64,000 nucleotides of DNA. Source: Spongilla lacustris. Taxonomy: Eukaryota; Porifera; Demospongiae; Spongillida; Spongillidae. Each line of letters begins with the position of its first letter. Position 1 is the stretch's first letter. The stretch covers positions 12,723,241 through 12,787,240 of the forward strand of contig OX442415.1 in NCBI GenBank assembly GCA_949361645.1, written 5' to 3'. Below are positions 3,401-30,496 of this stretch, piece after piece. The notes beneath the pieces are model-generated. The model was given only the letters and a program-made list of their open reading frames with translations. It made no database searches and was not told the origin of the DNA. Position numbers and translations under genes: made by a program.

Positions 3401-6400
3401 ATCTGTCCAAATTGGTGTATCAAATATGAAGTGTACCTGAAATAGGTCAATATAAGTGGATTCTGTGTGGAAGAGTATGGCTCACGTGACGGTAACGCCC
3501 ACTTCCGGTCACGCCATCCCCAGGGGGTAGTCACACCACATACATCTGTCAAAGTTGGTGTATTAAGTATGAAGTGTACTTGAGATAGGTCAATATAAGT
3601 GGATTCTGTGTGGTAGAGTATGGCTCACGTGACGGTAACGCCCACTTCTGGTCACGCCATCCCCAGGGGGTAGTCACACCACATACATCTGTCAAAGTTG
3701 GTGTATTAAATATGAAGTGTACCTGAAATAGGTCAATATAAGTGGATTCTATGTGGAAGAGTATGGCTCACGTGACGGTAACGCCCACTTCCGGTCACGC
3801 CATCCCCAGGGGGTAGTCACACCACATACATCCGTCAAAGTTGGTGTATTAAATATGAAGTGTACTTGAGATACGTCAATATAAGTGGATTCTGTGTGGT
3901 AGAGTATGGCTCACGTGACGGTAACGCCCACTTCCGGTCACGCCATCCCCAGGGGGTAGTCACACCACATACATCTGTCAAAGTTGGTGTATTAAGTATG
4001 AAGTGTACTTGAGATAGGTCAATATAAGTGGATTCTGTGTGGTAGAGTATGGCTCACGTGACGGTAACGCCCACTTCTGGTCACGCCATCCCCAGGGGGT
4101 AGTCACACCACATACATCTGTCAAAGTTGGTGTATTAAATATGAAGTGTACCTGAAATAGGTCAATATAAGTGGATTCTATGTGGAAGAGTATGGCTCAC
4201 GTGACGGTAACGCCCACTTCCGGTCACGCCATCCCCAGGGGGTAGTCACACCACATACATCCGTCAAAGTTGGTGTATTAAATATGAAGTGTACTTGAGA
4301 TACGTCAATATAAGTGGATTCTGTGTGGTAGAGTATGGCTCACGTGACGGTAACGCCCACTTCCGGTCACGCCATCCCCAGGGGGTACATACATCTGTCA
4401 AAGTTGGTGTATTAAGTATGAAGTGTACTTGAGATAGGTCAATATAAGTGGATTCTGTGTGGTAGAGTATGGCTCACGTGACGGTAACGCCCACTTCCGG
4501 TCACGCCATCCCCAGGGGGTAGTCACACCACATACATCTGTCAAAGTTGGTGTATTAAATATGAAGTGTACCTGAAATCTGTCAATATAAGTGGATTCTA
4601 TGTGGAAGAGTATGGCTCACGTGACGGTAACGCCCACTTCCGGTCACGCCATCCCCAGGGGGTAGTCACACCACACACATTGGTGTATTAAATATGAAGT
4701 GTACTTGAGATAGGTCAATATAAGTGGATTCTGTGTGGTAGAGTATGGCTCACGTGACGGTAACGCCCACTTCCGGTCACGCCATCCCCAGGGGGTAGTC
4801 ACACCACATACATCTGTCCAAATTGGTGCATTAAATATGAAGTGTACCTGAAATAGGTCAATATAAGTGGATTCTGTGTTGTAGAGTATGGCTCACGTGA
4901 CGGTAACGCCCACTTCCGGTCACGCTATCCCCAGGGGGTAGTCACACCACATACATCTGTCAAAGTTGGTGTATTAAATATGAAGTGTACTTGAGATAGG
5001 TCAATATAAGTGGATTCTGTGTGGTAGAGTATGGCTCACGTGACGGTAACGCCCACTTCCGGTCACGCCATCTCCAGGGGGTAGTCACACCACATACATC
5101 TGTCCAAATTAGTGTATTAAATATGAAGTGTACCTGAAATAGGTCAATATAAGTGGATTCTGTGTGGTAGAGTATGGCTCACGTGACGGTAACGCCCACT
5201 TCCGATCACGCCATCCCCAGGGGGTAGTCACACCACATACATCTGTCAAAGTTGGTGTATTAAATATGAAGTGTACCTGAAATAGGTCAATATAAGTGGA
5301 TTCTGTGTGGAAGAGTATGGCTCACGTGACGGTAACGCCCACTTCCGGTCACGCCATCCCCTGGGGGTAGTCACACCACATACATCTGTCCAAATTGGTG
5401 TATCAAATATGAAGTGTACCTGAAATAGGTCAATATAAGTGGATTCTGTGTGGAAGAGTATGGCTCACGTGACGGTAACGCCCACTTCCGGTCACGCCAT
5501 CCCCAGGGGGTAGTCACACCACATACATCTGTCAAAGTTGGTGTATTAAGTATGAAGTGTACTTGAGATAGGTCAATATAAGTGGATTCTGTGTGGTAGA
5601 GTATGGCTCACGTGACGGTAACGCCCACTTCTGGTCACGCCATCCCCAGGGGGTAGTCACACCACATACATCTGTCAAAGTTGGTGTATTAAATATGAAG
5701 TGTACCTGAAATAGGTCAATATAAGTGGATTCTATGTGGAAGAGTATGGCTCACGTGACGGTAACGCCCACTTCCGGTCACGCCATCCCCAGGGGGTAGT
5801 CACACCACATACATCCGTCAAAGTTGGTGTATTAAATATGAAGTGTACTTGAGATACGTCAATATAAGTGGATTCTGTGTGGTAGAGTATGGCTCACGTG
5901 ACGGTAACGCCCACTTCCGGTCACGCCATCCCCAGGGGGTAGTCACACCACATACATCTGTCAAAGTTGGTGTATTAAGTATGAAGTGTACTTGAGATAG
6001 GTCAATATAAGTGGATTCTGTGTGGTAGAGTATGGCTCACGTGACGGTAACGCCCACTTCCGGTCACGCCATCCCCAGGGGGTAGTCACACCACATACAT
6101 CTGTCAAAGTTGGTGTATTAAATATGAAGTGTACCTGAAATCTGTCAATATAAGTGGATTCTATGTGGAAGAGTATGGCTCACGTGACGGTAACGCCCAC
6201 TTCCGGTCACGCCATCCCCAGGGGGTAGTCACACCACGTACATTGGTGTATTAAATATGAAGTGTACTTGAGATAGGTCAATATAAGTGGATTCTGTGTG
6301 GTAGAGTATGGCTCACGTGACGGTAACGCCCACTTCCGGTCACGCCATCCCCAGGGGGTAGTCACACCACATACATCTGTCCAAATTGGTGCATTAAATA

Positions 6401-6955
6401 TGAAGTGTACCTGAAATAGGTCAATATAAGTGGATTCTGTGTTGTAGAGTATGGCTCACGTGACGGTAACGCCCACTTCCGGTCACGCCATCCCTAAGGG
6501 GTAGTCACACCACATACATCTGTCCAAATTGGTGTATTAAATATGAAGTGTACCTGAAATAGGTCAATATAAGTGGATTCTGTGTGGTAGAGTATGGCTC
6601 ACGTGACGGTAACGCCCACTTCCGGTCACGCCATCTCCAGGGGGTAGTCACACCACATACATCTGTCAAAGTTGGTGTATTAAATATGAAGTGTACTTGA
6701 GATAGGTCAATATAAGTGGATTCTGTGTGGTAGAGTATGGCTCACGTGACGGTAACGCCCACTTCCGGTCACGCCATCCCCAGGGGGTAGTCACACCACA
6801 TACATCTGTCCAAATTGGTGTATCAAATATGAAGTGTACCTGAGATAGGTAATATAAGTGGATTCTGTGTGGAAGAGCATGGATCACATGACGGTAACAC
6901 CCACCTCCGGTCACGGTATTCTCAGGGGGTAGTCACTCCATATAGACCTGAAATA
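485..6955. repeat. 143-bp tandem satellite array, about 45 monomers
   Basis: The same unit recurs head to tail. The anchor ggctcacgtgac (ggctcccgtgac in one copy) falls at 629, 772, 915 and 1058, which gives a period of exactly 143 bp. The span predicts about 45 copies. Interior monomers are nearly identical, while the first and last are more diverged; both edge monomers carry attctcaggg where interior ones have atccccaggg. This is the usual result of unequal exchange inside an array. Each monomer carries the palindrome cacgtg. Short open frames on the minus strand at both ends are by-products of the repeat and I do not regard them as genes. Confidence 0.97.
1375..6483. repeat. Higher-order repeat within the satellite: 11-monomer blocks
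   Basis: Diagnostic variants recur at fixed long distances. The variant cacgctatcc occurs at 1375, 2938 and 4921, so the steps are 1563 and 1983 bp. The short monomer cacacattgg occurs at 2691 and 4674 (again 1983), with its diverged form at 6237 (1563 further). 1563 equals 11 x 143 minus the 10 bases missing from the short monomer. The middle block is 420 bp longer. That equals three extra monomers (429 bp) minus a 9-base deletion seen at about 4387. The extra trio is visible as acttctgg at 3644 and 4073, 429 bp apart. Confidence 0.9.
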
Positions 6956-7671: not shown

Positions 7672-8142
7672 TTGCGACGATACGTATTCAGCCCACCGAA
7701 GCGCTGTGTAAGATCTCCAGCAAGAGCTGCAGTATGCTTTAAGTGCCAGAAGAAAGGGCATTTTGCCCGTCTGTGTCCATCAAAACAAGTGGAAAAGCTA
7801 CATACAAGCAGTGCAGAGAGGGAAATTGAAGATGAGCTATTTGTTGAAGCAATTGGTGATGAGGATGAAAACACAGCACGGTTTGCATCGGTACAGCTTA
7901 ATGGCAAGACAGTGCAATTTAAAATGGACACTGGTTCAGAAGTTACAGTTATTTCCTGCAACACATTTAAGACCCTTGGGTGTCAAGAGTTGAAGACTTC
8001 ATCCAAAATTCCGTATGGACCTGGTAAACAGCTATTACATGTTATGGGGCAGTTTGTGGCCAAAATCACATACAAGAATGCTCCCAATCTTTGTCGTGAG
8101 AGGACTGAACTCAAACTTACTTGGGTTACCCGCAGCACTTAG
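7672..8142 (+). pseudogene. gypsy zinc knuckle and aspartic protease fragment
   Basis: The frame contains a CCHC knuckle (CFKCQKKGHFARLC, about residues 23-36), an acidic linker, and a retropepsin active site with DTGSEVTVIS at about residues 86-95. In a living element the knuckle binds RNA and the protease cuts the polyprotein. The frame is lost soon after the protease body. The fragment could be slightly longer at its 5' end, since no natural start is visible. Confidence 0.88.
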
Positions 8143-9542: not shown

Positions 9543-10622
9543 GTGATTACTGATGCAATTCCAATAGTCCAACCAATGCTCATTAAGTTTTGTACTGCTC
9601 AAATCAATGACTCTGTATGTACTCGCATAAGACAATACTGTCTTTATGTATGGCCTTCAAAGCAATATATTCCAGGTGAACTAAAACCTTACTGGTTACT
9701 TCGGGATGAACTCAGTGTGTGTAATGACTTACTCCTGTATGGTAAACGTATTGTAGTGCCAAGATCACTGCAGACATTCACTCTTCAAAAGATACACTCT
9801 GGTCACCTGGGAATGCAACGTTGTCGTCTTAGAGCAGGAAATACAATATGGTGGCCAGGTTTGGCCAAGCAAATTTTGTCAACGGTGCATTGTCACATTT
9901 GCAGTCAAAAGAATCCTTTGGTTGTTGAACCAATGATTTCTTTACAACTACCAGCATACCCTTGGCAAAGAGTGAGTTCTGATCTGTTTGAAATGAAAGG
10001 CAATATGTGTATCTTTTGGTTGTTGATTCGCTTTCAAGATATACAGTTACCTTCCACTACCACATCTACCAAGGTCATTTCTGTGTTGAATTCTGTGTTT
10101 GCTCAGCACGGTATACCAGAAGAATTTAATTTTATAAGTGACAATGGCCCCCAGTATTCCTCACAGGAAATGAAAGAGTTTGCCTTGCAGTATGGATTTA
10201 GACATACAACTAGTAATCCGCATTATCCAAGAGGTCATGGACAGGCAGAACGAGCTCTGAAAACACTGAAGTCCTTGCTACTGGACACAGTCCAGCAGAG
10301 CTTCTGTTTGGTAGACAAATTCGCACCACTCTACCCCAAGCTCTAAGCCAGCTAACACCAGACTGGGCCCACTTGAAACAATTTCGGATAAAAGAGCAGC
10401 AGTTTAAATGTCGTCAGAAAGCAGATTATGACCAGCAGCACAGAACTCGGTTATTATCTGATTTACAACCACTGAGAAGAAATGAACAAAAGGTCATGTT
10501 ATTTCAAAAGCAAATACCCCTAGATCCTATATTATGGAGACTCCAGATGGTTGTACACTGCGACGAAATCGTCATCACTTAATGGTAGTTCCACAGGGTG
10601 AAGTATTGCAAGATGAACAAGA
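9543..10622 (+). pseudogene. gypsy integrase fragment
   Basis: The longest piece is 9543-10346. It has an HHCC zinc-binding region (HSGHLGMQRC, later CHICSQKN), the catalytic core from VSSDLFEM onward, SDNGPQYSS around the second acidic residue, and GHGQAERALKTLKS with the third. After a frame change, the C-terminal part with DYDQQHRTRLL and a METPDG-type motif reaches about 10622. These are the standard parts of a gypsy integrase that would insert the DNA copy into the host genome. The open stretch is long but flanked by frame breaks. Confidence 0.88.
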
Positions 10623-11234: not shown

Positions 11235-11393
11235 CTATGAAAAGTAAATTTTGTAAGACCGTTCTATTGTCTTCCTGCATAGAGGACAACTGATCACACG
11301 TTCAGCACATGAACTGCACGCACAGAGATGACCACAGGGAATAAACACCATCTCCACTGATCCCTCTAAGCATATTTTACAGTCGACTTTCAA
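11235..11393 (-). CDS. Exon 6 of zinc-ribbon/RING gene: C-terminal C3HC4 RING
   Basis: The exon is 159 bp, or 52 residues plus TAG. It starts in phase 0 after a pyrimidine tract and CAG, matching the donor of exon 5. The ligands are CKIC, then PCGHLCACSSC, then CPLC, with spacing Cx2C-x11-CxH-x3-Cx2C-x6-Cx2C. That is the spacing of the RING at the end of IAP proteins, and the stop comes a short distance after it, as in those proteins. A RING at this place would bind an E2 enzyme. It is too short to appear as a long open frame. Confidence 0.85.
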   Translation of the reverse strand: MKVDCKICLEGSVEMVFIPCGHLCACSSCAERVISCPLCRKTIERSYKIYFS

Positions 11394-14300
11394 CTGTACA
11401 GAAGGGAAAAAATGGGAGAGTTAAAAAATCAAAAGGTTAAAAACAAGAAATATTACTACAAGAATGCTGTTCTGCAAGTCAAATAATATTATCTCTTTAC
11501 AAATTAATGCTGCTAAGGACGTTGATATGCTTTTAAAGCACAAGTGTTCAAAATTAACAACACAGTCACAATATTAGTGCACAAAGACACTGGATTGTAC
11601 ACAGCTTCTACACAATACGAGATGAATTACTGGCAACATAAAACATGTAACAGAGATATACACCATGTATAAGTTGCTACTTAGCAGCTAAATATGTTAC
11701 TACATGTTGCTTGCTAAGAAGGAAGGATGACACCGCGTACGTACCAGCTCCAAGAAACCTTGATAGACAGGCATTAATGCCAACTAATGACTTGGTCTCA
11801 AAAGACTTAGCGGCAAATACATGTAAAGGCTCGTATTGGACCGACTTATTGTCACCAAAGAGGACAGTTTAAACAGGTAAAGTGAGATAGGTGTGTGCTC
11901 ACACAACAATATTGCATGAGTCGAAGTACATGTAGCAGCAAGTTGTGTAATGCAGCTAGGCAAAAGGCTGTTGTTAATATTAAAGTTAGATAGTAAGGCT
12001 GCTTCCTGCACTCATGGAGAACAGCAGCTGCTTGGCATGTTGTCGAAATGATATCCACTGAAAAGAGTGTGATGGATTTATCAAATGATTTCCACAACAT
12101 TACACGAATAATTCTAGAAAGCATAATGTGCATGCAGGTGGGGAGCATAGATTCCCAATAATTCTCAAATAGACTATATAAACTATACTGCATACACTTT
12201 ATCAACAAGTTCTGCCACCTACATGTACACGTACATAATTTGATGTAATTTGGCATAATGATAAAATGAACGGTATAAGGTTTGTTCTAAGGGAAAGTCG
12301 AATATTTATTTATAATTGACTTGATACATTATTAATCTTCCAGCTCATAAGTTTAGTACATATAATTAACTGTATGCTGCATGGTTAATTGTATTGCTCT
12401 GTTATAGAATACACGCCGGTGCACATGTACATATAAATACCTGATCAACTTGACTGTCAGTAGTTGCAAGTGATGATGTAGCCACTGCTTGTCTTCCTTC
12501 TGATAGTACAGGTACATTTGATACATCTGATGGTATTGGCATTGATGTGCTTTGTAATTTTTATACACCTGATATTGGTGCAATTGATGTGGGTGTACTT
12601 GATGCTAGACTTGGTGTTGGTGCACCTGGTGTTGGTAGACTTGGTGTTGGTAGACTTGGTGTTGGTAGACTTGGTGTTAATAGACTTGGTGTTGGTAGAC
12701 TTGGTGTTGGTAGACTTGGTGTTGGTAGACTTGGTGTTAATCGACTTGGTGTTAATAGACTTGGTGTTGGTAGATTTGGTGTTAATAGATTTGGTGTTGG
12801 TAGACTTGGTGTTAATAGATTTGGTGTTGGCAGACTTGATGTTAATAGAGTTGGTGTTGGTAGACTTGGTGTTAATAGATTTGGTGTTGGTAGACTTGGT
12901 GTTAATAGACTTGGTAGTGTAGTTAGACTTGGTGTTGGTGCACCTGGTATTGGTAGACATGGTGTTTGTATACATATACCTGCACTGTAAAAAAGGAGGA
13001 GAAGCTATTGTCAATCCAGCATTGGAATGTTAAATTGGATTACATAAAAATCCTAATTCTTGAATGTATCATACATGCGTATTTGAATCTAAATAAATAG
13101 GATTTTAATTGAAAAAAATACGGATCGATTTGAAAACCGTATGTGTATCCTAATGTACCAAGGGTATCCCCCTGCCCCCTCAGAAAACACACTTGCTCAC
13201 ATTTAAAGGAACACATGATTCATAGGGTGTGTAACCGATTTTCCGGTTTTTTAGGTTATTCGATTACTCACGATTACCTATTTGGCCAACTATGCATTTA
13301 GTAAAATAGCAGGTTATTTCTTTTAGTCAAAATAACCGATCCTGTTTTTCTTAGTTATGATTAGTCAATATTCATTTCCTTCATATGCAGAAATTGGTAG
13401 GAAATCGATTTACATGCTCTTCGCTTTTCCCGCCTATAAAAAGGGTTATTAACGGCTTAATGATTTAAGGGGTAACAAAAAAAAATACATTGTTGAAGTT
13501 TAGTCTGGGGACGCGGCTGAACGTAACAAGCGGTGCACGTGCAAGGCAATTTAACTCTTTGAACGCCAAGTGCATATATGTATACATTCTCACACAACCA
13601 TATAATCATCTGTGTGGTGCATGTCAGTGTTGTTTTATTACAAAGAATTGCCTCGAATAAGTGCAATATATGATAGGCATGGGGCACTGGGGGTGTAAAC
13701 ACATCTTGTGTTGTAACAATCCAATTATATATGAACTGGCAAAAGGCAGATGGAGAGAAGTGATCCGTCATTTATGTGGGCTACACATTCCTGTTCTTGG
13801 AGTATATAAATGGAGAGATGCAGTAGTGATGGATTAGTGAAGTCGTCTGAACAATAACATAATTACTAATTGTAGTTGTAGCTACTACAACTACAATGAG
13901 TAATTAGTTTTTTTCAGATGACTTCATTAATTCATTATTACTGCATCACTGCATTTATAAGGTTACATGTACAAGTGTAGCAACTTTTGCATCTTTAATT
14001 TCCACACTTTTATTTACACCATCATGGTAAAATCCATAATGGTTATGTGCATATGCATGAATGCATGTATGGCGTCCAAAGATTAAAACTACATTTGTTA
14101 TAGTTCCTGCTCACCTCGTGCTCTACGCATTAATCAAATGCGCTATACATGTACATACTCTTTAGCACCAGCTATGTGTGCTATTGGTTCCCAGGTTGCA
14201 CCAGGTGACAGTGTCCAAATACTTAAACAAACTCTTTTCCAGTCTTTCTGCCATGACATTTGCGGGGAGCGGTGTTCCACTGTGAGGTTTGGATTATAAC

Positions 14301-17300
14301 TATACGGCACGTGTTGTTTTCAATGTTTTAAGTTGGGTATAGACTTAAAAACCGTGATTTATTGTGCCAATCGGAAACACCTGGAAAAACCTGGAAAAAC
14401 CTGGAAAAATCTGGGTAATAGTTAGCAAATTAATCACCAAAATCAATTTAATGTTTCTAATAACTGATTTTCAAGTTGCTATAAACCTGAAAATCGACTT
14501 CTTATCTTTTTCGAAATAATCAATTTTGATATATAAAAAGGTTACACACTCTACACATAAACACTGTTGTCGAGGTACATGTGTACATAAAAAGTATTAA
14601 GCAACAAAACATCTATGTTCTAAGCATTTGCTTTCAGTGAAAATCACATGTACATGTACATGTCAATAAAAAACCTGAACAATATAGAGGATAGACTATA
14701 CAGTCTATCCTCGATATTATCCGTTCGTCTGTCTTTGCTTGATAATATTGAGTCTGGCTAATTTCAATATTATCTGGCTAGACAATGTAAATCATGATGC
14801 ATTTAGCACACGTGACTATTTTTAGCACTTCTGTTATACATGAGATCATGCAGCTCTCTACACAATGGAATACAACAGTTATGGGGCAGGGTTACACAGA
14901 AGGACTACATGTATCATAGGGCGTAAATAGCAACACCTAACCAATTTATCTTTGTTACTAAGTTCGGTGCAAGCTCGCTTTGATGTTGTCTATACACTTG
15001 CAGTAATGAAACACCTTCAAACAGTCAAGGCTGGAGCGGCTCAACATTAGTGAGTGTGCGATGGTACAGGCTATTATATTTGAACAACTATTGAGCTGCT
15101 CCAACCATCTCACCTGCACATGTACAATGTACATGTGCAGACAGTGCAGTGAGCATTTGATCATTTGAACAACAATTGAGCAGCTCGATTGTTTTAAAAG
15201 GGCTAGCCCTGCTCTAGCATAGTTATAAACTTAGTTAAATATGTAGGCAGTTGCACAGCCTTATACAGTAGTTGTCGAAAAAACCTCACCCTAAATATGT
15301 TACTATAATCGATTGCCATGACAACAGTGTTGTCCGAAAAGCCCCATTTTCTATAATAACAAATCCGGACAATATTGACTGACAAGGATAACACCAAGGC
15401 TAGACTCTACATGTAGCTATCACCTTCCAGTTGTTCGAAAATGTACAATTTCTAAGATCGTTACACAGACATGACTTCTTTTTTAGGTGTCTACAGTAAA
15501 TGCTATTCAAACTACAGGGTGTAATGTACAATGTAAAATACAGCTGATAATTAAAAAGAATCCAGCATGTAGAAATAAATACAGATAATAATACATGTAC
15601 TTATGTACTACCATAATTATCATAACAAATTAAACCTCTCCAAATCAAGTAAATTGTGTAAACTTTAAATGGCAATACCACATTTTGTTTATACTACATT
15701 TTGCACCACAAAAAGCAGATTATATGAAAGCTCTGATACTGCATTATTGTCGGTCAGTGTTATACATTGTATATTGTGTTTTATTAACGCTCATAGTAAA
15801 ATTTAACTGATTTATACTCTTGTAATCCTAGGGCGACAATCTTTCTATTGATATCTACATCCATTAAAATGATAGTGTGCAAACTAGATTTACACGTAGA
15901 ATTTTGAGTTTATATATGTACATGTAACTGACAATCATTAAAAAAATTTGGTGTTATTGAATACATTTTTCTAACTGTATCTACGAAAATGACAAAACAA
16001 CATTTTTCACATGTTTCAAATTGTTTTCTAATGCTGTGCAAATTTAAATTACATATCCCAAATGTGACTTTTCATCATGGAGTTACAAGGCAGCTAATTT
16101 CTTTATTGCATATATCATAGTTTATCATGTCTAATTTCATTTATTATATCGCCAATTTTACGAGTTTTGATTTTTTACATCATAATTCCCCCCCACCACA
16201 TTTTACAATTAATATGATGAAAGAAATTTGAATGGCCCAAGTGGTTCCATCTGCATGATGTGGCAGCACTCAACATGAATTACAATATGTATTAGTGGAA
16301 GAATATAGTACTTACGGTCTATTGTACGGCCATACATCTTGTCCGCAATCCCTGCATTTGACATAGCCAGCAACTCGATAGGATTTCCACTTGTTGTAAC
16401 AACGTGAACACCTGTAGCATGCAGCTTCATCGTCAGAGTCCTCAGATACTTCAGGAGATGATTTGTTGTGTGGCCACACTTCTTTATTGCAATCACTGCA
16501 TGTTGCCCAGCGATCAGAATATCCTGATTCCCACTTCTTTCCACAGCGCAAACATTCATACTCACTAGGCCTAGGGGAAGAAATCCATCAGAATTCATCA
16601 AATTTTTCAGGATCCAATTGTTGACATGGTCACACATTTGTCTAGCATTGTTTACATAATGGTTAGACATTTCAACCAAGGGATCTACGTAATGTAGAAT
16701 GCCTCTGAGGGGCCTGGGCTGTAGCATTCCGGGCATAGCAAAGTCGCTACTAAGAGCCCAAGGGTATTCTAATTTCTGTACATCCAGAGGGTGAAGTTTC
16801 TAACTATTATGTAAAGAATGCTAGAATCCTCATGAATTCAGTGACTCATGACCACCCTACCCATAAAAAAGTTTGAGTGAAATTTGAGTCAGACATACAG
16901 AAAACTCTATGAATGACCCAGATACCAGCTAAGTTTCACACGAGTTTTGATCAGTGATGGAAGGTACATGTACGCTGTAGAAAGGTACAGCACATGGCAT
17001 CTTCAAATGGTGTAAAGAACTTACTAATGTGAGATATAGTTCAAGTAAGATAAATCTATTCACCAATGCGACCATGACAGAGTGCTAAATGGAGATTGTG
17101 TGTGCAAATGCCATCAATTTTTAATCGCATTATTTCTCTAATACACATGTATACATGTATTTGAACTGAACTTTTGCCCCTTGCCTCCCCCTTTTGTTGA
17201 AACCCTGAATTGTATACAAAATACGACGGTTATTGGTCTCTATGCAGATATTAATATCTTGATAGCACTAATAATTAAATAATTTGAGTTAGCATTATTG

Positions 17301-20300
17301 AAACAAGTGAATTAATGAATTTTGAATTGTTAAATGTATTTCTTTTTCTTTCTCTCGCCATGAATAAAGCATTATTCTACCATACAGTTAATTTATATTT
17401 TGGTCATACATGTAAGTGCTCCCTTCTGCATTTAGCCACTTTACATGCATATATATGCATAACAATTAATAGATCACATCAAAGTGTACATACGGTCTAT
17501 TGTATGGCCATATATCTTGTCCGCAATCACTGCATTTGACACAGCCCTCAATATGATATGATTTCCACTTGTTGTAACAACGTGAACACCTGTAGCATGC
17601 AGCTTCATCGTCAGAGTCCTCAGAGACTTCAGGAGATGATTTGTTGTGTGGCCACACTTCTTTATTGCAATCACTGCACGTTGCCCAGCGATCATCATAT
17701 CCAGATTCCCACTTCTTGCCACAGCGCAAACACTCATACTCACTAGGCCTAGGGAAAGAATGCGTATAAATTTCAATGCAAGTGTTACTTCTCTATCTCT
17801 TGCAAACATTTACGTGGCCCTGGAAGTCGCGCGACCAAACGTTGTACAACACACGATTTTGCGATTGAACGATATAGTGACGGTCTGATTCCATGATCGT
17901 GCAATGCAGCAATGGTCCAATTCTGCCATTGATCATTGAGCCCAACCAAAAAACCATCCAATTCTGCTACATGTACCTTACAACACACAATTATGTGAAC
18001 TAGCATTGATCTATTTTTTGGATTAAACAGCGGACTGTTTCTCTGACTGATAAGCCAAAGGTACTATGTGATATACATTTAGGTGGTACCTTGCATAATG
18101 TCATGTGAATTAATGATGCACATGCAGTACGATAAGACAATCCTGGCCTGGTTATACTTGTGCATCTGCGGCTAATGCACCATGAGGTTGTTGAGTATAA
18201 AGTGTGGCGCAGTACCAGTAAACTACATGTAACAGCATCGCTATACCAGATCCACTATACCTTCAGGCTAAAGTGGCTCTGCACTGCATGGCACTAAAAC
18301 GGAACAACATCGTGGAAACACGTACATCATTAGTACATCAGACCGTTAAATTAAGGTCAGTACTTTGCTGAGCTACATGTACGTCAATACAGAGTGGTCT
18401 ACATTGGGGGCAGAGAACGAGCTGCAAACGTCCAACTGCTGCCTCAGGTACCGGGCAATGTGGCAATTATTCAAATGAAGTAAAGATACACCATTAAAAG
18501 GGTGCCCTGTATTTGGGCGAGGTACACATTGTCCTTGACAGACACTCTATTGTTACTCATCTAGATCCACTGTGATGATGCTACTTGCTGTAATGGATCC
18601 TGTTGGTTCACGGCTAATGACTGACAAGGAGAACCTACGCGAACAAGGCAGTGATTTGTTAGCATCACACAGCTACTTTAAGCTTTGTGTAGGGGTCCAA
18701 ACTGGTATTCGCACGTTGATGGGTTCATGAAACCTTACACTTAGAGAACTGTGACTATCCTCTTTTCATCGTCTCTGTTAAGGATGAAAATAGCTCCTCC
18801 CCACGCCCTGGAGAGGGCCATATATAATAAAGAACTTGGTATGTTGCCCCTCCAAGCCATTTGTTTCATCATCATCAGGCAAGGGGATCTGGAGGACCTG
18901 AACAGCAGGTGCATATCCCTACATGTACACTATACATGCAGTTGCCATGGAGAGTTTATTATTTTTGTCCCAAGAGGACAGATCATCCAATTCACTTTCA
19001 CTTCACTACATGTAGAACCATGGCTTAATGTTTAATCTCCAGGGAAAAATCCTTATTTAAGGATGTCATTATCCTTAAATAAGGATCGTCTTTTGCATTG
19101 CATACTTTTGCTAACCAAGCAAATTAGATAATATAAATGCTATTGGTCAATTGTATACTGATTAGCCTCCATAACAAACTGTAAATGATGTCAATATGAT
19201 CAATGTCCATATTTTAAAACAGGGATGAAGTGGCACATCTTTATTTAAGGATTGACACCATCCTTAAATAAGGATCAAAACAGTAGAGGTTATTGACCTC
19301 AAAAACCATAGTGGTTTTAAAACTCTTGATTTTCTCTGATAGTCAGTTAACCCAGCTATACTCACAATCTGATTCCTTGAAAAAAGAACTTGTGGTTAAT
19401 AAGTTATGAACATTTACATCATAACACTTCAAAATTAATATCAAGCGTTTGTATAATGACACGTACGTGTACATGTACTGATGTAGATGGTATCATGCTA
19501 TCTTCTGGTCAAACGCCAGCGTGGATGTATCCCTATAGCCTCGCTGAAACCAGTGCATGACCACGTGCACTACATGTGGTTCGCGCTCCATTGAACAGAC
19601 TGAGTGTGCTTTCTATTCATACATACAGTACCCGGGCAAGGGGGGGGGGGGGGGGTTTACGGGAGATGTAGGAAGCGTTGCCAATTCTTAGCCCCAATTA
19701 ATCAGACTCGAGGGGACCACGTCATTGCCTAGGCCTACTGTTGCTGCTGCCATAGATTATGGAATTACGGTCACCTAGCTACACATGTAAATATAGGCCT
19801 AGTGGCCCGCCTACACGATGTACGTCCCATCAATACTGAGGAATTACATCCGTCGTTTTCTGTGGCTCTCTCAGTAACTAAGCAGACACTTTTGAGTGTA
19901 TGCAATCAGTGCTGAGTACCTGTACACTGGCCACGCCTCGGGCCGCGCGGTACGTACGTACAATGTACGTGAGTCGTGAGCCAGCGTATCGCCGTGGATA
20001 TTGTTCCACAGACGGGTCCATCTGATCCTGACAGTCTACATTCTACTCCTTCGATTCAGCTTTCAGAAACCTGCCCTTCCTTCGATTTGAGTTAATTGGC
20101 TCACTACTATATCGCCAATGGCAAATGGCGGCTTCGCCATAACGAGACTGTAATACCGGTTTTTGAACAAGTCAAACCTGTTGTAATCGCGGCAGTAACG
20201 CTAATCTGCCTTATCTTGAATCTAGTTAATCACAAATCTAAAATAAAGCACCAAGTGTGCATCATTTTCTTAGAAAGTGGTCATCATCCTTATTTAAGGA

Positions 20301-23300
20301 TGGCCATCTTTAAATAAGGATTCCGGGAGATTAAACATTAAGATTGATGTAACAATGCATATGATACTTAGTGTTTCTGATCAAGCATCCCTGCAAACTA
20401 GTCATCATGCTCATTTCTTCAGTAAAGCCATTAATAAGACACATTTTTGTCCCACAATGGCTTCTTACAAGTGTAGTACATGTACATGTATCCTGAAGTA
20501 TGCAATCCAAAATTAAGGATATTATTGACGCACATAAACACACAATCACACAGTCATACACACATACACAGTCACATATAAAGTGGTCTTTGAAGATGTG
20601 ACCACAAAAGACAAACATCTCAGAGAGAGGGACATACGCTATCACACATAAAGACACACGTACGCAGCCACACAAACACACACCCCTGCACACAAGAAAG
20701 TTATCTCTGAAGGTGTGACCACAAAAGACAATCAAACACCTCAGTGGGGGAAGGATTAGTTGTTTTGGCACTTATTAATAGTAGGAATAGAACAACATAC
20801 ATGTAAGCACACACACAGTACATATCACACACAAACAGACAGCACGTATCACACACAGAAACAAAGCATATACATGTATAACACACCACTGTTTTAGTCC
20901 CATGCACCATGCAGTGCAGGGAGCCTTTTCAGTTGCAATTTAGTCTGAAGGTATTGCCGATCAATACGGTATAGCGATGCTGTTGGTATAATGGTACCGT
21001 GCCACACTTTAATACTCAACAACCACGTGGTGCATTAGCCGCAGATATGCGAGTATGACCAGGCCAGGACTGTCTTCTGCTGCCTCCAGTATCATCCTGC
21101 ATGTGCAACGTTACCTGATAGTGATATGCTAACTTACGGTGGACTACAGAATTGTCTCTGTGAAGCAGTATTAAGTTACGTGATGTCATGCAAGGTACCA
21201 TCTACATGTATATCCCATAATACAATGTACTTTTGGCTGGTCGGGCGGGGAAACAGTCCACTATTCGATCCCAAAAATAGACCATTGTCGATCCCAAAAA
21301 TTCAACTATAACAGTCGTAAATTTGAAAATAGGCTTCTTCATTTGGAAATTCAGACTTTTGGTTGTTCATGTAGGATACAGTGTACTCGATAGAGAAGTT
21401 TTAGATTTATTTGTAATATTGAAGCTAGTTAAATATAAGGAACGTTTGATAATCTTTTGCCCATTGAACAATCAATTTCATTGGTCAAAATTGCATTTAG
21501 CAACTCAAAATGCTATATATATTAATGCATCTTGAGTGGACGAATAGTGTACGTATGGTATATTATATGGCCATACATCTTGTCCGCAATCCCTGCATTT
21601 GACATAGTCAGCAACACCATAGAATTTCCACTTCCACTATATTTAACACATGCATGAACAATGTATTGTCCTACAATGTGTGCCGAGCTAAATACAGGAC
21701 TATTTCATTTTTTATCATTCATCCCTTGTTTCCCTGCTTTTTACACCATTATTGCCTTCAAATCCTATATACCACCAACTTTCTCATAGAGAATGTTTTT
21801 ATATACTTGTCACATCAGAGTGTACTTACGGTCTATTGTATGGCCATACGTCTTGTCCGCAATCCCTGCATTTGACACAGCCAGCAACTCGATAGGATTT
21901 CCACTTGTTGTAACAACGTGAACACCTGTAGCGTGCAGCTTCATCGTCAGAGTCCTCAGAGACTTCAGGAGATGATTTGTTGTGTGGCCACACTTCTTTA
22001 TTGCAACCACTGCATGTTGCCCAGCGATCATCATATCCAGATTCCCACTTCTTGCCACAGCGCAAACACTCATACTCACTAGGCCTAGCAGAAGAGAGCC
22101 ATTGGAAATCATATTGGAGACATCACATTATTATTCCTACAGGTAACCCAGCTACATGTACATGCACATATCAATACAGTATACATTTCAATCACATACA
22201 TGTATGGCAATTGCATCATGTCCAAGATGAGCAAAACTAGACCTTGCATTGAAATATGGGTGATCAGAATTTCATCCCTTAACCTTTAATCTATTTTCAT
22301 CCTTAATTCAGGATGGAAATCCTTAATTAAGGATGGAAATCCTTAATTAAGGATGGAAATCCTTAATTAAGGATGGAAATCCTTAATTAAGGATGGAAAT
22401 CCTTAATTAAGGATGGAAATTTTTAATTAAGGATGACTTTACGCCGCTCGTATCAACATCAATTCGAACGGTTTTTGTTGCTATTTAGCTTCAGTAGGCT
22501 TTCATCTAAACAGCGCTATCCATTTTAGTCGTTCAAATTTTTATTTCTTTTAGAAAAAACTATGTTTAGGCTTAGTTTCCTTTTTCATTCGCAAATAATG
22601 CCGCGGTTACCATCAAAGTCAGGTATAAAGTTGAGGAAAGAGCAGGAAGCTTACGCTCAAGATAGAAACTGTTACAAAGATCTATAAGAAGAGCCATATA
22701 AGCAAATTCAAGAATATGGGACACAGGAGGTACGAGCATCGAATTAACTCAAGGCGGACTAAGCGAAGCGAGTCAGAGCGGGTTGTACGATGGTTAGCCC
22801 CTGCAAAATAAAAATAAAAAAGCATTTCTTTCGTTGAGAGCGATGCAGAAATGCCTGGCATTGGTAAAAATGCTGTCACCAGTACTGTTGAGACATAAAA
22901 AGAAGGGGCAGATGCTTGGACAGTGATAATAAATTACACTTTTCTATTATTCTGCGTACAAGTTTGATACAAATACAACTTCTACCAAGAGTCTGGAGGT
23001 GCTACCACCAATAAGTAGTGAAAAGGAGTAAAATTGATATGTTCAATGCTCTTTGTAAGCATAAATTGTTAATCATTTAATTTATGTTAGCGAGAGCAAC
23101 GAAACGTACTTGTGCATCCTTGAAGTTTGGGCAGCTTTCTAAAGAACTCACTATCCTGAATTCAGGATTCTACCGATCCTGAATTCAGGATCGTTTCACG
23201 CAGATTAAAGATATATTCTTTTAAAGATCGACTTTCATAGTCCTAAAATTAAAAACCAGTGTTTGCGTGGTTCTAGAAGGAAATGGAGGAGAGTGATGGA

Positions 23301-25117
23301 CATTAATGATGGAGCTGGGCTCCCCAGTTAAATGGGACTAAATTGTGCAACCTGTTTTATGTTTTCTTTACACTTACATGTATTCTTGTATGTATTTTAT
23401 CTATTTAAATCATATTACTAAAAGGTTATTGCAGATGTCAGTTGATACATTTGGGACAGTTTATGCCAAAATTTACGCTCATAATAGCCATAAACATCCT
23501 ATTTTCAATATTTTATAGTACACCATTGCTCTATTGGATACTACATGTACAATTTGACACCTCGCTGACATTAATACATGTACAAGTTCCAACAACCCAT
23601 GGGGCTCAAAAGCCATACTTTTGGGTAGAAGTGTGTAGATAGAGAGATCATGTCGCTATTGATTTGTGCTGTTTGTTTAATTTTACTTTATCCATCACTG
23701 AGTTACATGTAGCTCAGTGACATTAAGGCACATTTCCCCTAGATTTGGGCAATTTCTATACACTCAATAATAATATTAAATAAATTCTTCATTCCACCCA
23801 TTTTCTGCCTTCAACTAAGCTAGAAGCCACTCACAACAGTTTTGCATTATGAGCGTATGTGAAAAAAAGACTTCTCACATCACCAAATGATTGTACCAAA
23901 TTATCGGATCCAATACGAGTGAATGGTTACGGTAATATAGCTTGTGCCATGTTTCACATGTACTTACTCATGTACTATGTAAGAATTTTACTTAAGTTCA
24001 CTGTCCACTAAGGAGATGTTTTCACTTGATATTTGTACATCTCTAGAAAACATTATCATGGATGTGAATTCATTAATAGTTGTGTATTGGTTGGATGGTT
24101 TTCATTTTTTTAACATTAACAGTATGCAGTATTGAAAATTTAACAACACAGTGTTGTTGACCAAACATTTGTAAACAAGTACCAGAAATCACATGACTAA
24201 CACATCTGTTCATTTCCGTTTTCAGTGTCCCAGTCCAATAAACGGATTTATAGCATATTTCTCAGCTCTGAGGCAGCAGATCAACACCAAATTTCAGTAG
24301 GTCGATTTTTTTACTGAGGGATGGTGGGTGATTGCATTATAGAAACCTACGTTTACAATGAAACAGTTAAATTCACCATCAAAATTTTGTTTGCAAATTA
24401 AAAAATACATCATTTTCGAGTGAAATTCATTAAAATTGTGACATTATTGTTACAATTTCATAATATTTATTAAAGTTGTGATATTATGGCTGAAGATGGA
24501 AATAGTTTTCTTTAGCCAAGTTTTACTGCAATGCAACACAATTTATGAAAGTTTATGTATGTGTGTGTAATGGTACGGGTACGAATTATCGATACGCTGC
24601 CTTAACACCAGTGAGTAAATCTGAAGTGATACAATAACACGTAAGGTAAAGTGGTATCACCATTGATCTCTGTTATGAGCCCGATGTTATTTTGAAAATA
24701 TATTCATAATCCTCTCTAAGCTCTACAATATTATCAACATTAGACAATGGGATTTATGAAGTTCTCCTTGGCCCCCCCTGGCCGTGCATAACTTTACCTA
24801 AGACTTGAGTACATGTAGATCACTTACAATCTATTGTATGGCCATACATTTTGTCCGCAATCTCTGCAATTGACATAGCCAGCCGCAACTCGATAAGATT
24901 TCCACTTGTTGTAACAACGTGAACACCTGTAGCGTGCAGCTTCATCATCAGAGTCCTCAGATACTTCAGGAGATGATTTGTTGGGTGGCCATACATCTTT
25001 ACCGCAGCCAATACATGTTGCCCAGCCATCAGAATATTCTGAATCCCACGCAAGGCCACAGCGATAACACTGGTAGTAGTGCGGACCGTATAAAGCGGAT
25101 TCGGTTCTGTTGGCCAT
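11235..25117 (-). CDS. Zinc-ribbon repeat / PTPSL / RING-finger gene, 6 exons (interrupted by one stop)
   Basis: Joined exons, 5' to 3' on the minus strand: 25117-24828, 22078-21830, 17742-17494, 16564-16316, 12984-12441, 11393-11235. The coding length is 1740 nt, or 580 codons including the stop. All junctions fit: introns 1-4 are phase 2 and intron 5 is phase 0. Each has GT at the donor and AG at the acceptor. The product would have paired Cx2C zinc ribbons repeated four times, a Pro/Thr/Ser/Leu repeat linker, and a C-terminal C3HC4 RING like that of IAP proteins. A RING of this kind normally recruits an E2 and makes the protein a ubiquitin ligase. An in-frame TAA at codon 487 (12561-12563) would cut off the RING, so the gene is either a recent pseudogene or carries a polymorphism or sequencing error. 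I do not recognise the full architecture as a named family. Confidence 0.75.
12441..12984 (-). CDS. Exon 5 of zinc-ribbon/RING gene: PTPSL repeat linker
   Basis: A pyrimidine-rich acceptor ends at 12985. The first base completes the phase-2 codon of exon 4, and the exon then reads AGICIQTPCLPIPGAPTPSL. About 20 copies of a 15-bp unit follow, giving variants of PTPSL and LTPNL. The tail is rich in Ser, Thr and Val and ends SQVDQ before a GTATTT donor in phase 0. The other frames across the repeat (LGVGR forward, TNTKS reverse) are also open, but only this frame joins both neighbours. An in-frame TAA lies at 12561-12563, 40 codons before the exon end, and the frame stays open after it. Confidence 0.72.
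12597..12970. repeat. 15-bp minisatellite inside exon 5
   Basis: Head-to-tail units of cttggtgttggtaga with a common variant gttaataga. The unit is a multiple of three, so copy-number change keeps the reading frame of exon 5. Confidence 0.9.
13223..14553. mobile_element. Possible 1.3-kb DNA element with short inverted ends, in intron 4
   Basis: The left edge tagggtgtgtaacc matches the complement of the right edge, tagagtgtgtaacc, with one mismatch, and TA lies at both borders. The interior is AT-rich with no coding frame. Internal agreement between the arms is weak, so a chance pair is possible. Confidence 0.4.
13807..13961. repeat. Hairpin-forming inverted repeat
   Basis: Two arms of about 70 bp pair around a centre at gtagctactac. 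The inner part is taattgtagttgtag facing ctacaactacaatgag. The outer parts pair gatgcagtagtgat with attactgcatc. It looks like a small MITE with a nearly palindromic body. Confidence 0.75.
14687..14712. repeat. Short perfect palindrome
   Basis: gaggatagact and agtctatcctc face each other across four bases. No larger structure was found around it. Confidence 0.7.
15108..15142. repeat. Palindrome of catgtac type
   Basis: ctgcacatgtaca is followed at once by its complement tgtacatgtgcag, with two bases between. Nearby, gatcatttgaacaac and similar strings are repeated on either side (15075-15175). Confidence 0.7.
16316..16564 (-). CDS. Exon 4 of zinc-ribbon/RING gene, 249 bp
   Basis: Third phase-symmetric 249-bp copy. 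The first ribbon reads ECLRCGKKWESGYSDRWATC and continues to CNKEVWPHNK. The second has CSRCYNKW and CRDCGQDVWPYNRP. The donor is GTAAG and leaves two bases that the next exon completes. Confidence 0.8.
17494..17742 (-). CDS. Exon 3 of zinc-ribbon/RING gene, 249 bp
   Basis: Same length, phases and motifs as exon 2, with few substitutions (CSDCNKEVWP in the first ribbon; SYHIEGCVKCSDCGQDIWP in the second). The donor is GTATGT. All eight ribbon cysteines are kept. Confidence 0.8.
19029..20337. mobile_element. TTAA-flanked non-autonomous DNA transposon, 1309 bp
   Basis: TTAA stands at 19025-19028 and again at 20338-20341. Directly inside them, both ends begin tgtttaatctcc in inverted orientation, followed by a few variable bases and then atccttatttaa. 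Together this makes an imperfect inverted repeat of about 34 bp. TTAA duplications are known for piggyBac and Kolobok elements. The inside has no transposase frame but has three subterminal pairs of 16-bp near-palindromes and a G tract at about 19641-19656, so this copy needs a partner enzyme to move. Confidence 0.75.
19051..19088. repeat. Paired 16-bp near-palindromes
   Basis: atccttatttaaggat, six bases, then its exact complement atccttaaataaggat. Each arm is itself almost self-complementary. Related pairs occur at 19241-19276, 20286-20322 and 23152-23191. Confidence 0.85.
20514..20890. repeat. CA-rich low-complexity stretch
   Basis: Interrupted cacaca runs with repeated phrases such as gtgaccacaaaagacaa, present twice (20599 and 20716). 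The Cys/Val-rich minus-strand frames are artefacts of composition. Confidence 0.7.
21557..21641 (-). pseudogene. Relic half-copy of the zinc-ribbon exon
   Basis: On the minus strand this encodes KWKFYGVADYVKCRDCGQDV and then WPYNIP, the second ribbon of the 249-bp exons. The first half is missing, and the donor GT has become AT. It lies just 3' of exon 2 and records a fourth duplication of that exon that decayed. Confidence 0.8.
21830..22078 (-). CDS. Exon 2 of zinc-ribbon/RING gene, 249 bp
   Basis: Bounded by an acceptor (complement of 22079-22080) and a GTAAGT donor. It is exactly 249 bp, phase 2 at both ends. It encodes EYECLRCGKKWES, then CSGCNKEVWPHNK, the acidic linker SPEVSEDSDDEAA, then YRCSRCYNKWKSYRVAG and CRDCGQDVWPYNRP. 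Each half has two Cx2C pairs and a conserved Trp, as in a zinc ribbon. Being phase-symmetric, the exon can be duplicated or skipped without changing frame. Confidence 0.8.
22301..22434. repeat. 20-bp tandem repeat of a palindrome, 7 copies
   Basis: Unit ccttaattaaggatggaaat, starting every 20 bases from 22301 to 22421. The first copy has ccttaattca and the last ttttaattaa. Each unit contains the perfect palindrome tccttaattaagga. Confidence 0.95.
23152..23191. repeat. Pair of perfect 16-bp palindromes
   Basis: atcctgaattcaggat occurs twice with seven bases between. It has the same layout as the ccttatttaagg pairs of the TTAA element, with a different core. Confidence 0.85.
24690..24790. mobile_element. 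Relic end of a fold-back element
   Basis: The string from attcataatcctctc through aagctctacaa to ccttggcccccc resembles, in order, the right arm of the fold-back element that ends at 50755 (attcgtaatcctctc, aagctctgcaaa, cttgcccccc). No matching left arm was found nearby. Confidence 0.5.
24828..25117 (-). CDS. Exon 1 of zinc-ribbon/RING gene (start codon, first zinc-ribbon pair)
   Basis: The ATG is the complement of 25115-25117 and opens with MANRTESALYG. Two zinc ribbons follow: CYRCGLAWDS with CIGCGKDVWP, then YRCSRCYNKW with CRDCGQNVWP. The linker KSSPEVSEDSDDEAA sits between them. The exon ends in a good donor (GTAAGTG) in phase 2, after 96 codons plus two bases. It is the most diverged of the four ribbon exons, and its first ribbon differs most from the others. 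A preceding codon also allows a non-ATG start three bases upstream, but ATG is the sensible choice. Confidence 0.8.
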
Positions 25118-27642: not shown

Positions 27643-29889
27643 TTAAGTTAACATTACATCTAAATTTAGGTCTCCCATGATATAATCAGCTAATAGCCCG
27701 TATAATGTTAATGTAACATTATCTCCTTCTTCTTCGCATTCATCATTCTTCCAGTATGTAATAACTACTTTAGGAACTTGAGACTTCTTGGATTGCTTTA
27801 CACATATGATGTGTCCATTGTAAAGCACATTCTGGTTATCAACGTACCACAGCTGTTCAAAATACAAACCATTCAAAACAGACTCATTTGATAAAACGCT
27901 TAATATTACATTCTTTTTACACTCTGAAATATCTTGAAACTCATTTGATAAATCTAATTCCTTTTCTGCAACACATTGCAACTTCTTTTCTATCTTCCTC
28001 CTTAAACTGTTCTCCTTCTTTTGAATCTTAACTTTAATTCTCTGATCTTGTAATATAGAAACATTGTGTTCATGTTGTTTATTAACTAACTTCACTCTCT
28101 GACCTTGTCTGATGCAAAATTTGACTATATCTTCTTGCTTGTCCTGAGAATGTGCACACAGCCACTGCATTGTTCCATTAATTTTACATTTCACTTTTCC
28201 ATCAAGGAACCCTACTTTAATGTTAGAAGCTTTTCTATAAAGGTAGTCAGCCATGCCAAGGGTATGTTCAGCAAACATATTGTGGACTGGTGCTGATGAT
28301 GCTTGATGGACAATGGATGGTGATAGATTCGTTAACGTACCTTCTAGGTAGTCATGCAACTGTTTCTTTATTACACATATTACACCTTCAAGTAGCTGTA
28401 CTAGAATATCGTTTAATACCAACTTATCTTGCTCAGTTGTGGCAGAATTTTGAAGTTCATTTAACACAGCATCAGAACCTACATCCAAGGATACACCAAA
28501 CGTATCAGTGTTTGCCTGCAACATCATTAAAGGGTTTTCTTTTAATGCATTCAGGTTCTCTAAACACATTTTTATATAGTTTATGCTATCAAGGTTTGAA
28601 ATACCTGAATTAGTATATAGTTCATGCATCCATGGTCCTGTGACCATTTTCCCTATGATTCCAAGTGCACGCAATTGTAATAAAATGTTAATGTTTCTCA
28701 AGTCTTTCACCAGTGATGTTCGTAAAGTTATATTATTATTACAACTTTTTTCCAAATATATCACTATCGTTGTTCTTAGATAATACAAAACACCGGCAAG
28801 ATGAAACAGTACGTGAAAACGATTACCAACATACCGAATTATAATACTTTGTTTGATATTATTTTGTCGTAAAAATTGCTTAAAACCAGATGGGTCTCCC
28901 TTTCCTTGCTTAAATCTCATTTTGTTCATAGCAATAATAAAATTAACAGCACAGCAGTCCCTGCCAAATGTGTCGCTTGTAACATTATTTTGATTGTCAT
29001 ATACCTTTAAAATGTTCGTACACTTCTTTGCAATCCCATCAAGAGGATGAATATTGCACTTTAGTTCTAATAATTCTACTTCAAATGCCGATTCTAGCTG
29101 TTGCACTACACAGTGATTTACTGCAACTCTGTCACTGAGGGTGTTCTTCAAATGCTTAATAATCCTGGACTTGGCATGAAGATAGTCTACTCCATGATAT
29201 GCGGCATATGTAGTAATAATAGAGTTTATGGAATCACAAATATGAGACATGTAGTCTTCAGTTGTACCTCCGGCGAGGGATCTTAAGCTTAACACATATG
29301 ATTTTGGTGGTACTAAAGAAACACTTATATGTACTTCATTTATATGTTCTCCATTAATGGTTGTAGAGTCCCACGAAAGTGTTACATTATTACCATTATA
29401 CATTATTTCACCAACTTGCAAATCACTTAGTACTCCAAGTTCATATGCTAAATAACTTACCGTAGATGGTTCAGGGAGAGAAGTAACTTTCAAACCCGCC
29501 ATTTGATTTAAAATCACTTCAATAACGGGGCATATGCAGGTTACGGGTACATGATATTCCAGGCAGTAGTAAATGGCTTTGCGGCATGATGTACTATAGG
29601 ATTTCCCATCAGATTTAGTGTCTATGTATTTTGGCTCTGTTTGCATTAAAACGTCCGAATTGTACTCCGATTGAAGTATATCATTATCAGCTTTAAGATT
29701 GTGCACTTGATGTCTTAATACATTATTCTCTCTTTTCAATACTTGTACCAAATGTGTATGAGATATCTTAAACTTCCTGAACTTAGATCTTATAACAGCC
29801 AGCAATCTTCTCAGACTTCTTACTTCGGATTGACTGCTTCCATGTTTCAATACTACATTATCATTTTTTAACTTCCTAATGAGTGGCAT
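27643..29889 (-). CDS. Transposon ORF 2, probable transposase core (748 codons)
   Basis: The start MPLIRKLKNDN is followed by basic and heptad-like segments (about residues 25-75, e.g. VLKRENNVLRHQVHNL) that look like a coiled coil. A globular region follows with LSWDSTTINGEHINEVHISV near residue 170, a strand-like YVLSLRSLAGG, then TLSDRVAVNHCVVQQL and KCNIHPLDGIAKKC. These spaced acidic residues in strand-helix context suggest an RNase H-like transposase, but I could not match it to a named superfamily. The tail is charged (KIQKKENSLRRKIEKKL). It is open over its full length, so this copy is young or selected. It lies inside clear inverted ends. Confidence 0.65.
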   Translation of the reverse strand: MPLIRKLKNDNVVLKHGSSQSEVRSLRRLLAVIRSKFRKFKISHTHLVQVLKRENNVLRHQVHNLKADNDILQSEYNSDVLMQTEPKYIDTKSDGKSYSTSCRKAIYYCLEYHVPVTCICPVIEVILNQMAGLKVTSLPEPSTVSYLAYELGVLSDLQVGEIMYNGNNVTLSWDSTTINGEHINEVHISVSLVPPKSYVLSLRSLAGGTTEDYMSHICDSINSIITTYAAYHGVDYLHAKSRIIKHLKNTLSDRVAVNHCVVQQLESAFEVELLELKCNIHPLDGIAKKCTNILKVYDNQNNVTSDTFGRDCCAVNFIIAMNKMRFKQGKGDPSGFKQFLRQNNIKQSIIIRYVGNRFHVLFHLAGVLYYLRTTIVIYLEKSCNNNITLRTSLVKDLRNINILLQLRALGIIGKMVTGPWMHELYTNSGISNLDSINYIKMCLENLNALKENPLMMLQANTDTFGVSLDVGSDAVLNELQNSATTEQDKLVLNDILVQLLEGVICVIKKQLHDYLEGTLTNLSPSIVHQASSAPVHNMFAEHTLGMADYLYRKASNIKVGFLDGKVKCKINGTMQWLCAHSQDKQEDIVKFCIRQGQRVKLVNKQHEHNVSILQDQRIKVKIQKKENSLRRKIEKKLQCVAEKELDLSNEFQDISECKKNVILSVLSNESVLNGLYFEQLWYVDNQNVLYNGHIICVKQSKKSQVPKVVITYWKNDECEEEGDNVTLTLYGLLADYIMGDLNLDVMLT

Positions 29890-30496
29890 TTATCTCCTTC
29901 TTTGCAGCTGTTAATTTGGAACGAATCACAGCTTCAATTGCTTTCTTCCTACTTAAGGCTTGACTTAGTCGTTTATTATTAGTGCTATGCTTATTCAAAA
30001 GCTTCGCCTTAAGAGAAACCTTAGAAGCAAACATTCTTCTAAGAGCTATTCTTCTGTTAGCACATTTATGACAATCGGAAATTAAAGTGTTAGATACTGG
30101 ACATGAGGTGTGTCCACCTTCACCACTAGTATAGTGTGGCAATGACAATACATGCAAAGTACTTGATGAGTTCAAAGGCACTGTGAATTTCTGATTCAAA
30201 AATGATACTAAGTTATCCCAAGTTCTACTAAGACATTTCTTCATGTCCTTCACTGATGCTAATAAACGTGTAATGGACTGGGATAATGCCTTTAAGTTTG
30301 CATCATCATTTGGTACCAGCTTTGAAACCAACCTCACTGTTTCCTGCTTGTTAAGACTTGCCAGGTCAATATTAATGTATAGCACTAATCCATTCCTTAT
30401 TTCAGGAACAAGCAGTTTGTAATGCTCATCAATATCATTTTTGAACATTAAAAGATGGTTCCTCAGATCATTAGCAGTCCTCATTCTAAACAACAA
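29876..30496 (-). CDS. Transposon ORF 1, uncharacterised (206 codons)
   Basis: Starts MLFRMRTANDLRN and is rich in Leu, Lys and Ser. It has an internal CPVSNTLISDCHKCANRR segment that could hold a metal, then basic helices to the end. The bases just upstream on the coding strand form a pyrimidine tract and AG (complement of about 30486-30500), so the true first exon may lie further upstream and the ATG shown may be internal. It overlaps ORF 2 by 14 nt in another frame. I cannot name the family. It probably supplies the N-terminal or DNA-binding part of the transposase. Confidence 0.6.
   Translation of the reverse strand: MLFRMRTANDLRNHLLMFKNDIDEHYKLLVPEIRNGLVLYINIDLASLNKQETVRLVSKLVPNDDANLKALSQSITRLLASVKDMKKCLSRTWDNLVSFLNQKFTVPLNSSSTLHVLSLPHYTSGEGGHTSCPVSNTLISDCHKCANRRIALRRMFASKVSLKAKLLNKHSTNNKRLSQALSRKKAIEAVIRSKLTAAKKEINATH

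Follow-up and report, generated by a model that had tools for sequence, protein, structure and literature searches.

One of the four loci of a gene family that joins tandem zinc ribbons to a RING domain lies in a 64,000-nucleotide stretch of Spongilla lacustris DNA (contig OX442415.1, positions 12,723,241 to 12,787,240), hereafter called the window. The intact form of the family is found at a second locus, on C17, and most likely encodes a dimeric RING ubiquitin ligase with a zinc-ribbon substrate reader, plausibly for RNA or a ribonucleoprotein (RNP). In the window, we upheld a six-exon map on the minus strand, in which four exons carry eight zinc ribbons, the fifth a PTPSL-repeat linker and the sixth a RING. 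An original prediction from the same DNA had drawn this layout over 11235-25117, a span that runs from the stop TAG to the ATG, with introns 1-4 in phase 2, intron 5 in phase 0 and consensus ends. These exons and phases (2, 2, 2, 2, 0) were recovered, with GT-AG at 5/5 introns (10/10 intron ends GT or AG). The accompanying claim that the exons join in one frame fails for the window sequence, where an in-frame TAA interrupts exon 5. The features are as follows, in window positions, with a slash at splice boundaries.

25117-24828, minus strand: exon 1 (e1), ATG (start context GTGATGG), ribbon doublet, 96 whole codons, phase-2 donor ATT/GTAAGT
22084-21830, minus strand: exon 2 (e2), ribbon doublet, 255 bp, phase 2-2
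17748-17494, minus strand: exon 3 (e3), ribbon doublet, 255 bp, phase 2-2, weaker donor GTATGT
16570-16316, minus strand: exon 4 (e4), ribbon doublet, 255 bp, phase 2-2
12984-12441, minus strand: exon 5 (e5), PTPSL-repeat linker, entered in phase 2 and left in phase 0
12606-12970, minus strand: minisatellite with a 15-bp unit, 24.1 copies, 81% matches, encoding the five-residue linker repeat
12563-12561, minus strand: in-frame stop TAA of e5, opposite a CCA (Pro) codon in the linker repeat of C17
11393-11235, minus strand: exon 6 (e6), C3HC4 IAP-type RING, C-terminal tail SYKIYFS, stop TAG

Each ribbon exon encodes two CxxC...CxxC ribbons, and the four cysteines are invariant across 15 aligned ribbons, eight of them from the window. 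The length of e2-e4 depends on the acceptor, with the first AG of CTAGGCCTAG giving 255 bp and the second giving 249 bp. The e3 donor scores weakly (-1.03), by splice-site frequencies, 

That these exons form one gene is supported within the same 248.6-Mb assembly that holds the window. At least 12 ribbon matches (15 candidates scored) were found, at four loci: the window, C17 and two on C6 (C6a and C6b). At least 20 RING matches were found (24 candidates scored), and the three best after that of the window (E 2e-21 to 4e-21, with the fifth at E 1e-13) were those of C17 and both C6 loci, 8-11 kb downstream of the ribbon exon on the same strand. The chance of a RING within 12 kb downstream is 5e-4 per locus, a figure that assumes uniform placement and independent loci, and the C6 pair is not independent. 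These two are nearly identical (synonymous divergence, Ks, 0.02 between their ribbon doublets; no difference between their RINGs) and as recent duplicates were counted once, thus giving two independent confirmations and not three. At all three paralogous loci a Pro-rich linker frame with five-residue units sits between ribbon exon and RING, in identical order and strand. The three exons of C17 can be joined into an uninterrupted frame of 415 aa, with introns in phases 2 and 0. On C6, the agreement with the window and C17 extends to order and strand. Matches to C17 were obtained for all of the window's ribbon, linker and RING exons, but mostly not for the flanking introns (one strand compared; alignments with an end in the linker repeat, window 12450-13000, excluded), and e5 aligns with the C17 linker at 71.5% over 513 columns. 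The window locus has the ribbon exons, Pro-rich linker, IAP-type RING and phases 2 then 0 of the family, with the linker frame open at C17 and not in the window.

The divergence of the exons was estimated by the Nei-Gojobori method. Between the window and C17, the RING gave a Ks of 0.36, e2 0.34, e3 0.44, e4 0.43 and e1 0.59; between the window and C6a, the values were 0.86 in the RING and 1.04-2.40 in the ribbons. The similar window-C17 values in e2-e4 and the RING fit joint divergence, that is, duplication as a unit. Ka/Ks between the window and its paralogs was 0.09-0.65. Taken together, the sequence comparisons support the assignment of ribbon, linker and RING exons to one gene. That they are instead two neighbors, with the PTPSL exon as the last of a ribbon gene and the RING in a small gene of its own, would suit a TAA that closes the ribbon frame ahead of the RING, but we regard this as very unlikely: the ribbon-linker-RING order is retained at four loci, C17 is one open frame, ribbons and RING have like Ks, and the open frame with the RING exon has no ATG ahead of the RING itself. 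The predicted architecture of tandem ribbons, Pro-rich linker and C-terminal IAP-type RING is thus supported by the intact C17 paralog and by order and strand on C6, although the window copy itself is not an open six-exon gene.

The linkers retain a five-residue unit (PTPSL, SVPTS, QPIPS) despite their differing letters, and because the linker unit is 15 bp, copy number can vary without loss of frame. The stop in the window copy stands opposite this repeat in C17. In the frame set by e4, e5 reads 140 codons, mostly PTPSL-type repeats, and then TAA, so the modelled frame stops short of the RING. None of the three frames of e5 is open throughout (2, 1 and 10 stops). Past the TAA, the same frame carries on, and its last segment corresponds to the end of the linker at C17 (window EGRQAVATSSLATTDSQVDQ, C17 EQKQAVAESSLATSSESNSQADQ), up to the shared donor GATCAG/GTAT. 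A phase-0 donor directly before the TAA (GGT/GTATAA) scores -6.67, versus +1.57 for the conserved e5 donor. Because of this stop codon, the window copy may not make the RING. Unless the stop is spliced out, this reference haplotype probably yields a ribbon protein that lacks the RING, or the gene is in an early state of pseudogenization.

One explanation is that the family is real and the window copy is a pseudogene or null allele, separated from its RING by a nonsense change where the linker repeat had decayed. The in-frame TAA opposite a C17 Pro codon speaks for this, as do two ribbon remnants close by, one a broken exon and the other a fossil, but every cysteine of the eight ribbons and every RING ligand is retained and the window splice sites are GT-AG. 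Furthermore, a three-taxon split assigns 5.25 amino-acid changes to the window RING and 11.75 to the RING of the intact C17 copy, at similar silent change (4.25 versus 4.75), although the counts are small. We give this explanation somewhat less than an even chance, and since the window RING has changed less than its intact counterpart, on those same small counts, the stop could be of recent origin, still polymorphic, or bypassed. Bypass could come about through a sequencing error or through a 42-nt in-frame intron within e5 (TATCAG/GTGTAT ... CCATCAG/ATG, phase 1-1), and a full ligase would then be made. The donor CAG/GTGTAT scores 1.71, on a par with the 1.57 of the conserved e5 donor, 42 nt preserves the frame, and ribbons and RING appear constrained. 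However, the acceptor has a poor pyrimidine tract, the aligned stretch of C17 is coding, and an intron of 42 nt would be very short, making bypass rather unlikely. In sum, the window copy is most likely truncated, decaying or rescued by splicing.

The ribbon exons also have a history of gain and loss. Among themselves, e2, e3 and e4 differ by Ks 0.10-0.21, lower than against C17, which suggests that recent exon duplication gave the window copy its four doublets (eight ribbons). Two remnants accompany them.

16598-16656, minus strand: fossil of the first (single) ribbon still encoded by C17 and C6, now intronic, just upstream of e4 (blastn E 1e-8 to C17, 4e-8 to C6a)
21546-21633, minus strand: broken partial ribbon exon between e2 and e3, with one TAG and with its donor GT reading AT (by eye)

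The fossil indicates that a once-coding ribbon has turned intronic. It is clear in 1/4 exon-upstream regions; upstream of e1, e2 and e3, blastn found no comparable fossil (best E 0.04). The window locus is in this respect a clear example of exon duplication and of a formerly coding ribbon inside an intron.

Several noncoding stretches are also shared with the paralogs. A repeat at window 22398-22880 is 85% identical to a repeat in the C17 ribbon-linker intron (1474747-1475226), and 20-bp CCTTAATTAAGG units are found with it at 22299-22435. A stretch of intron 2 (21653-21810) matches a C6b intron (5241564-5241407) at 83% over 163 columns and may be either a shared repeat or an old intron. The window-paralog comparison also gave a 71% matching stretch upstream of the window gene (26500-26104).

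The RING of the window passes the Pfam model PF13920 (55.5 bits, cut-off 27). It keeps all eight zinc ligands (C3HC4), with an Arg following the last Cys and a short C-terminal tail. Its best sequence matches in the PDB are the RINGs of BIRC3 and XIAP, and the alignment reaches their last or next-to-last residue. The 13-residue tail past the last Cys is common to the IAP gene of this genome, but also to several other of its RINGs. This IAP gene is an XIAP-like gene on C7 (8376473-8378108) with three BIR domains, a Pro-rich stretch and a RING. Its RING is the nearest outside the family (54% identical), and its own best matches among the 12 RINGs compared are those of the ribbon-RING family. We infer an IAP-like gene as the source of the family's RING. 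Membership in the IAP family itself was rejected because there is no BIR domain at the window locus; the genome has at least four BIR matches (seven candidates scored), three on C7 and one on C14.

Tandem ribbons, a Pro-rich linker and a C-terminal IAP-type RING together make a ubiquitin ligase that reads through its ribbons probable. The C-terminal tail, and the Arg that follows the last Cys, suggest that the RING may dimerize and transfer ubiquitin. In the proposed mechanism, the RING plus tail would dimerize and recruit ubiquitin-conjugating enzyme loaded with ubiquitin (E2~ubiquitin), the elastic five-residue-repeat Pro/Ser/Thr linker would hold the modules apart, and the ribbon array would bind either the substrate or a scaffold for it, with RNA or an RNA-protein complex as the most plausible candidate. 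The mechanism is drawn by analogy with IAP and MEX3 ligases (see also PMC12419896). A ubiquitin ligase with a ribbon array as substrate reader is also what the original prediction had suggested; the layout has gained the support of the paralogs, while the reading of a substrate by the ribbons stays at the level of a proposal.

The array was compared with two known zinc-binding families. Human Shiftless (SHFL, C19orf66, RyDEN) was the top Foldseek match for two predicted models of the ribbon pair (E 0.006-0.03). PF15135 (UPF0515) aligns over both ribbons in P0002 and C6a, but the best score among those shown was 21.9 bits, below the curated cut-off of 29.8, so the ribbons were not assigned to Shiftless/UPF0515. 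A genome search with this model gave at least one match at E<=1 (six candidates), in the C6a ribbon exon at 18.1 bits. The 3CxxC zinc-binding domain (PF13695) was likewise rejected, with a best score shown of 16.4 bits against a cut-off of 23 (best E 0.0034). The zinc ribbon of SHFL has been reported as taking part in RNA binding (PMC9604422, PMC10433982), and RNA or RNA-protein is for this reason a first, tentative guess at the ribbon target. Two observations weigh against it: the PF15135 match in e4 of the window falls in a different register, and 1/14 control genomes also gave a below-cut-off match. Both lower the odds of an RNA target and of a more elaborate scheme, in which a Shiftless-type double ribbon outside vertebrates would be the reader of an IAP-derived ligase, the array replacing the BIRs and sensing RNA or stalled ribosome complexes. 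In the window copy, inclusion or skipping of the in-phase 255-bp exons would then let the array vary from two to eight ribbons, and a RING-less decoy, produced through the linker stop, would compete with the intact paralog. This scheme is a long shot. If the Shiftless likeness is true, an antiviral zinc module would be tied to ubiquitin in an animal lineage without a clear member by the Pfam model.

Elsewhere in the window, satellite DNA with a 143-bp unit (45.4 copies, 94% matches) occupies 488-6944. Pieces resembling a long terminal repeat (LTR) retrotransposon are found on the plus strand at 7672-8142 and 9543-10346, with a CCHC knuckle with aspartyl protease and an integrase H2C2 with rve. 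Two adjoining, overlapping long frames on the minus strand (27643-29889, 748 aa; 29876-30496, 206 aa) gave no Pfam match, nor did the 748-aa frame match NCBIfam; they possibly encode a mobile-element protein.

The ribbon-linker-RING layout corresponds to no named family in Pfam, and the top-ranked literature matches on sponge zinc-ribbon, RING, Shiftless, ubiquitin-ligase or IAP proteins contain no description of it, in agreement with the original prediction, which knew of no named family with such a layout. The ribbon-RING genes are apparently a small, previously undescribed family in this animal-like genome. RING ligases themselves are known, and it is the reader array that is new. The zinc-ribbon array thus joins the readers coupled to IAP-type RINGs, and the intact C17 paralog is suited to expression.

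The proposed ligase shares features with four known systems. The 3CxxC zinc domain of ZAR1/RTP (PF13695) resembles the ribbons in the order of its C-x2-C, its Trp and its second C-x2-C, but these families are not known to have a RING. Shiftless has tandem zinc ribbons, as here, but the ribbon-RING family has an acidic spacer between ribbons, arrays of three to eight ribbons, and a RING, which SHFL is not known to have. The MEX3 RNA-binding ubiquitin ligases likewise combine reader domains with a C-terminal RING, and the MEX3C RING was among the PDB matches (E 1.5e-6), but MEX3 reads RNA via KH domains and not zinc ribbons. The IAP proteins (XIAP, BIRC2/3 and the C7 gene) have tandem zinc-binding modules, a Pro-rich linker, a C3HC4 RING at the very C-terminus and an aromatic tail, and differ in having BIR domains where the ribbon-RING family has CxxC...CxxC zinc ribbons.
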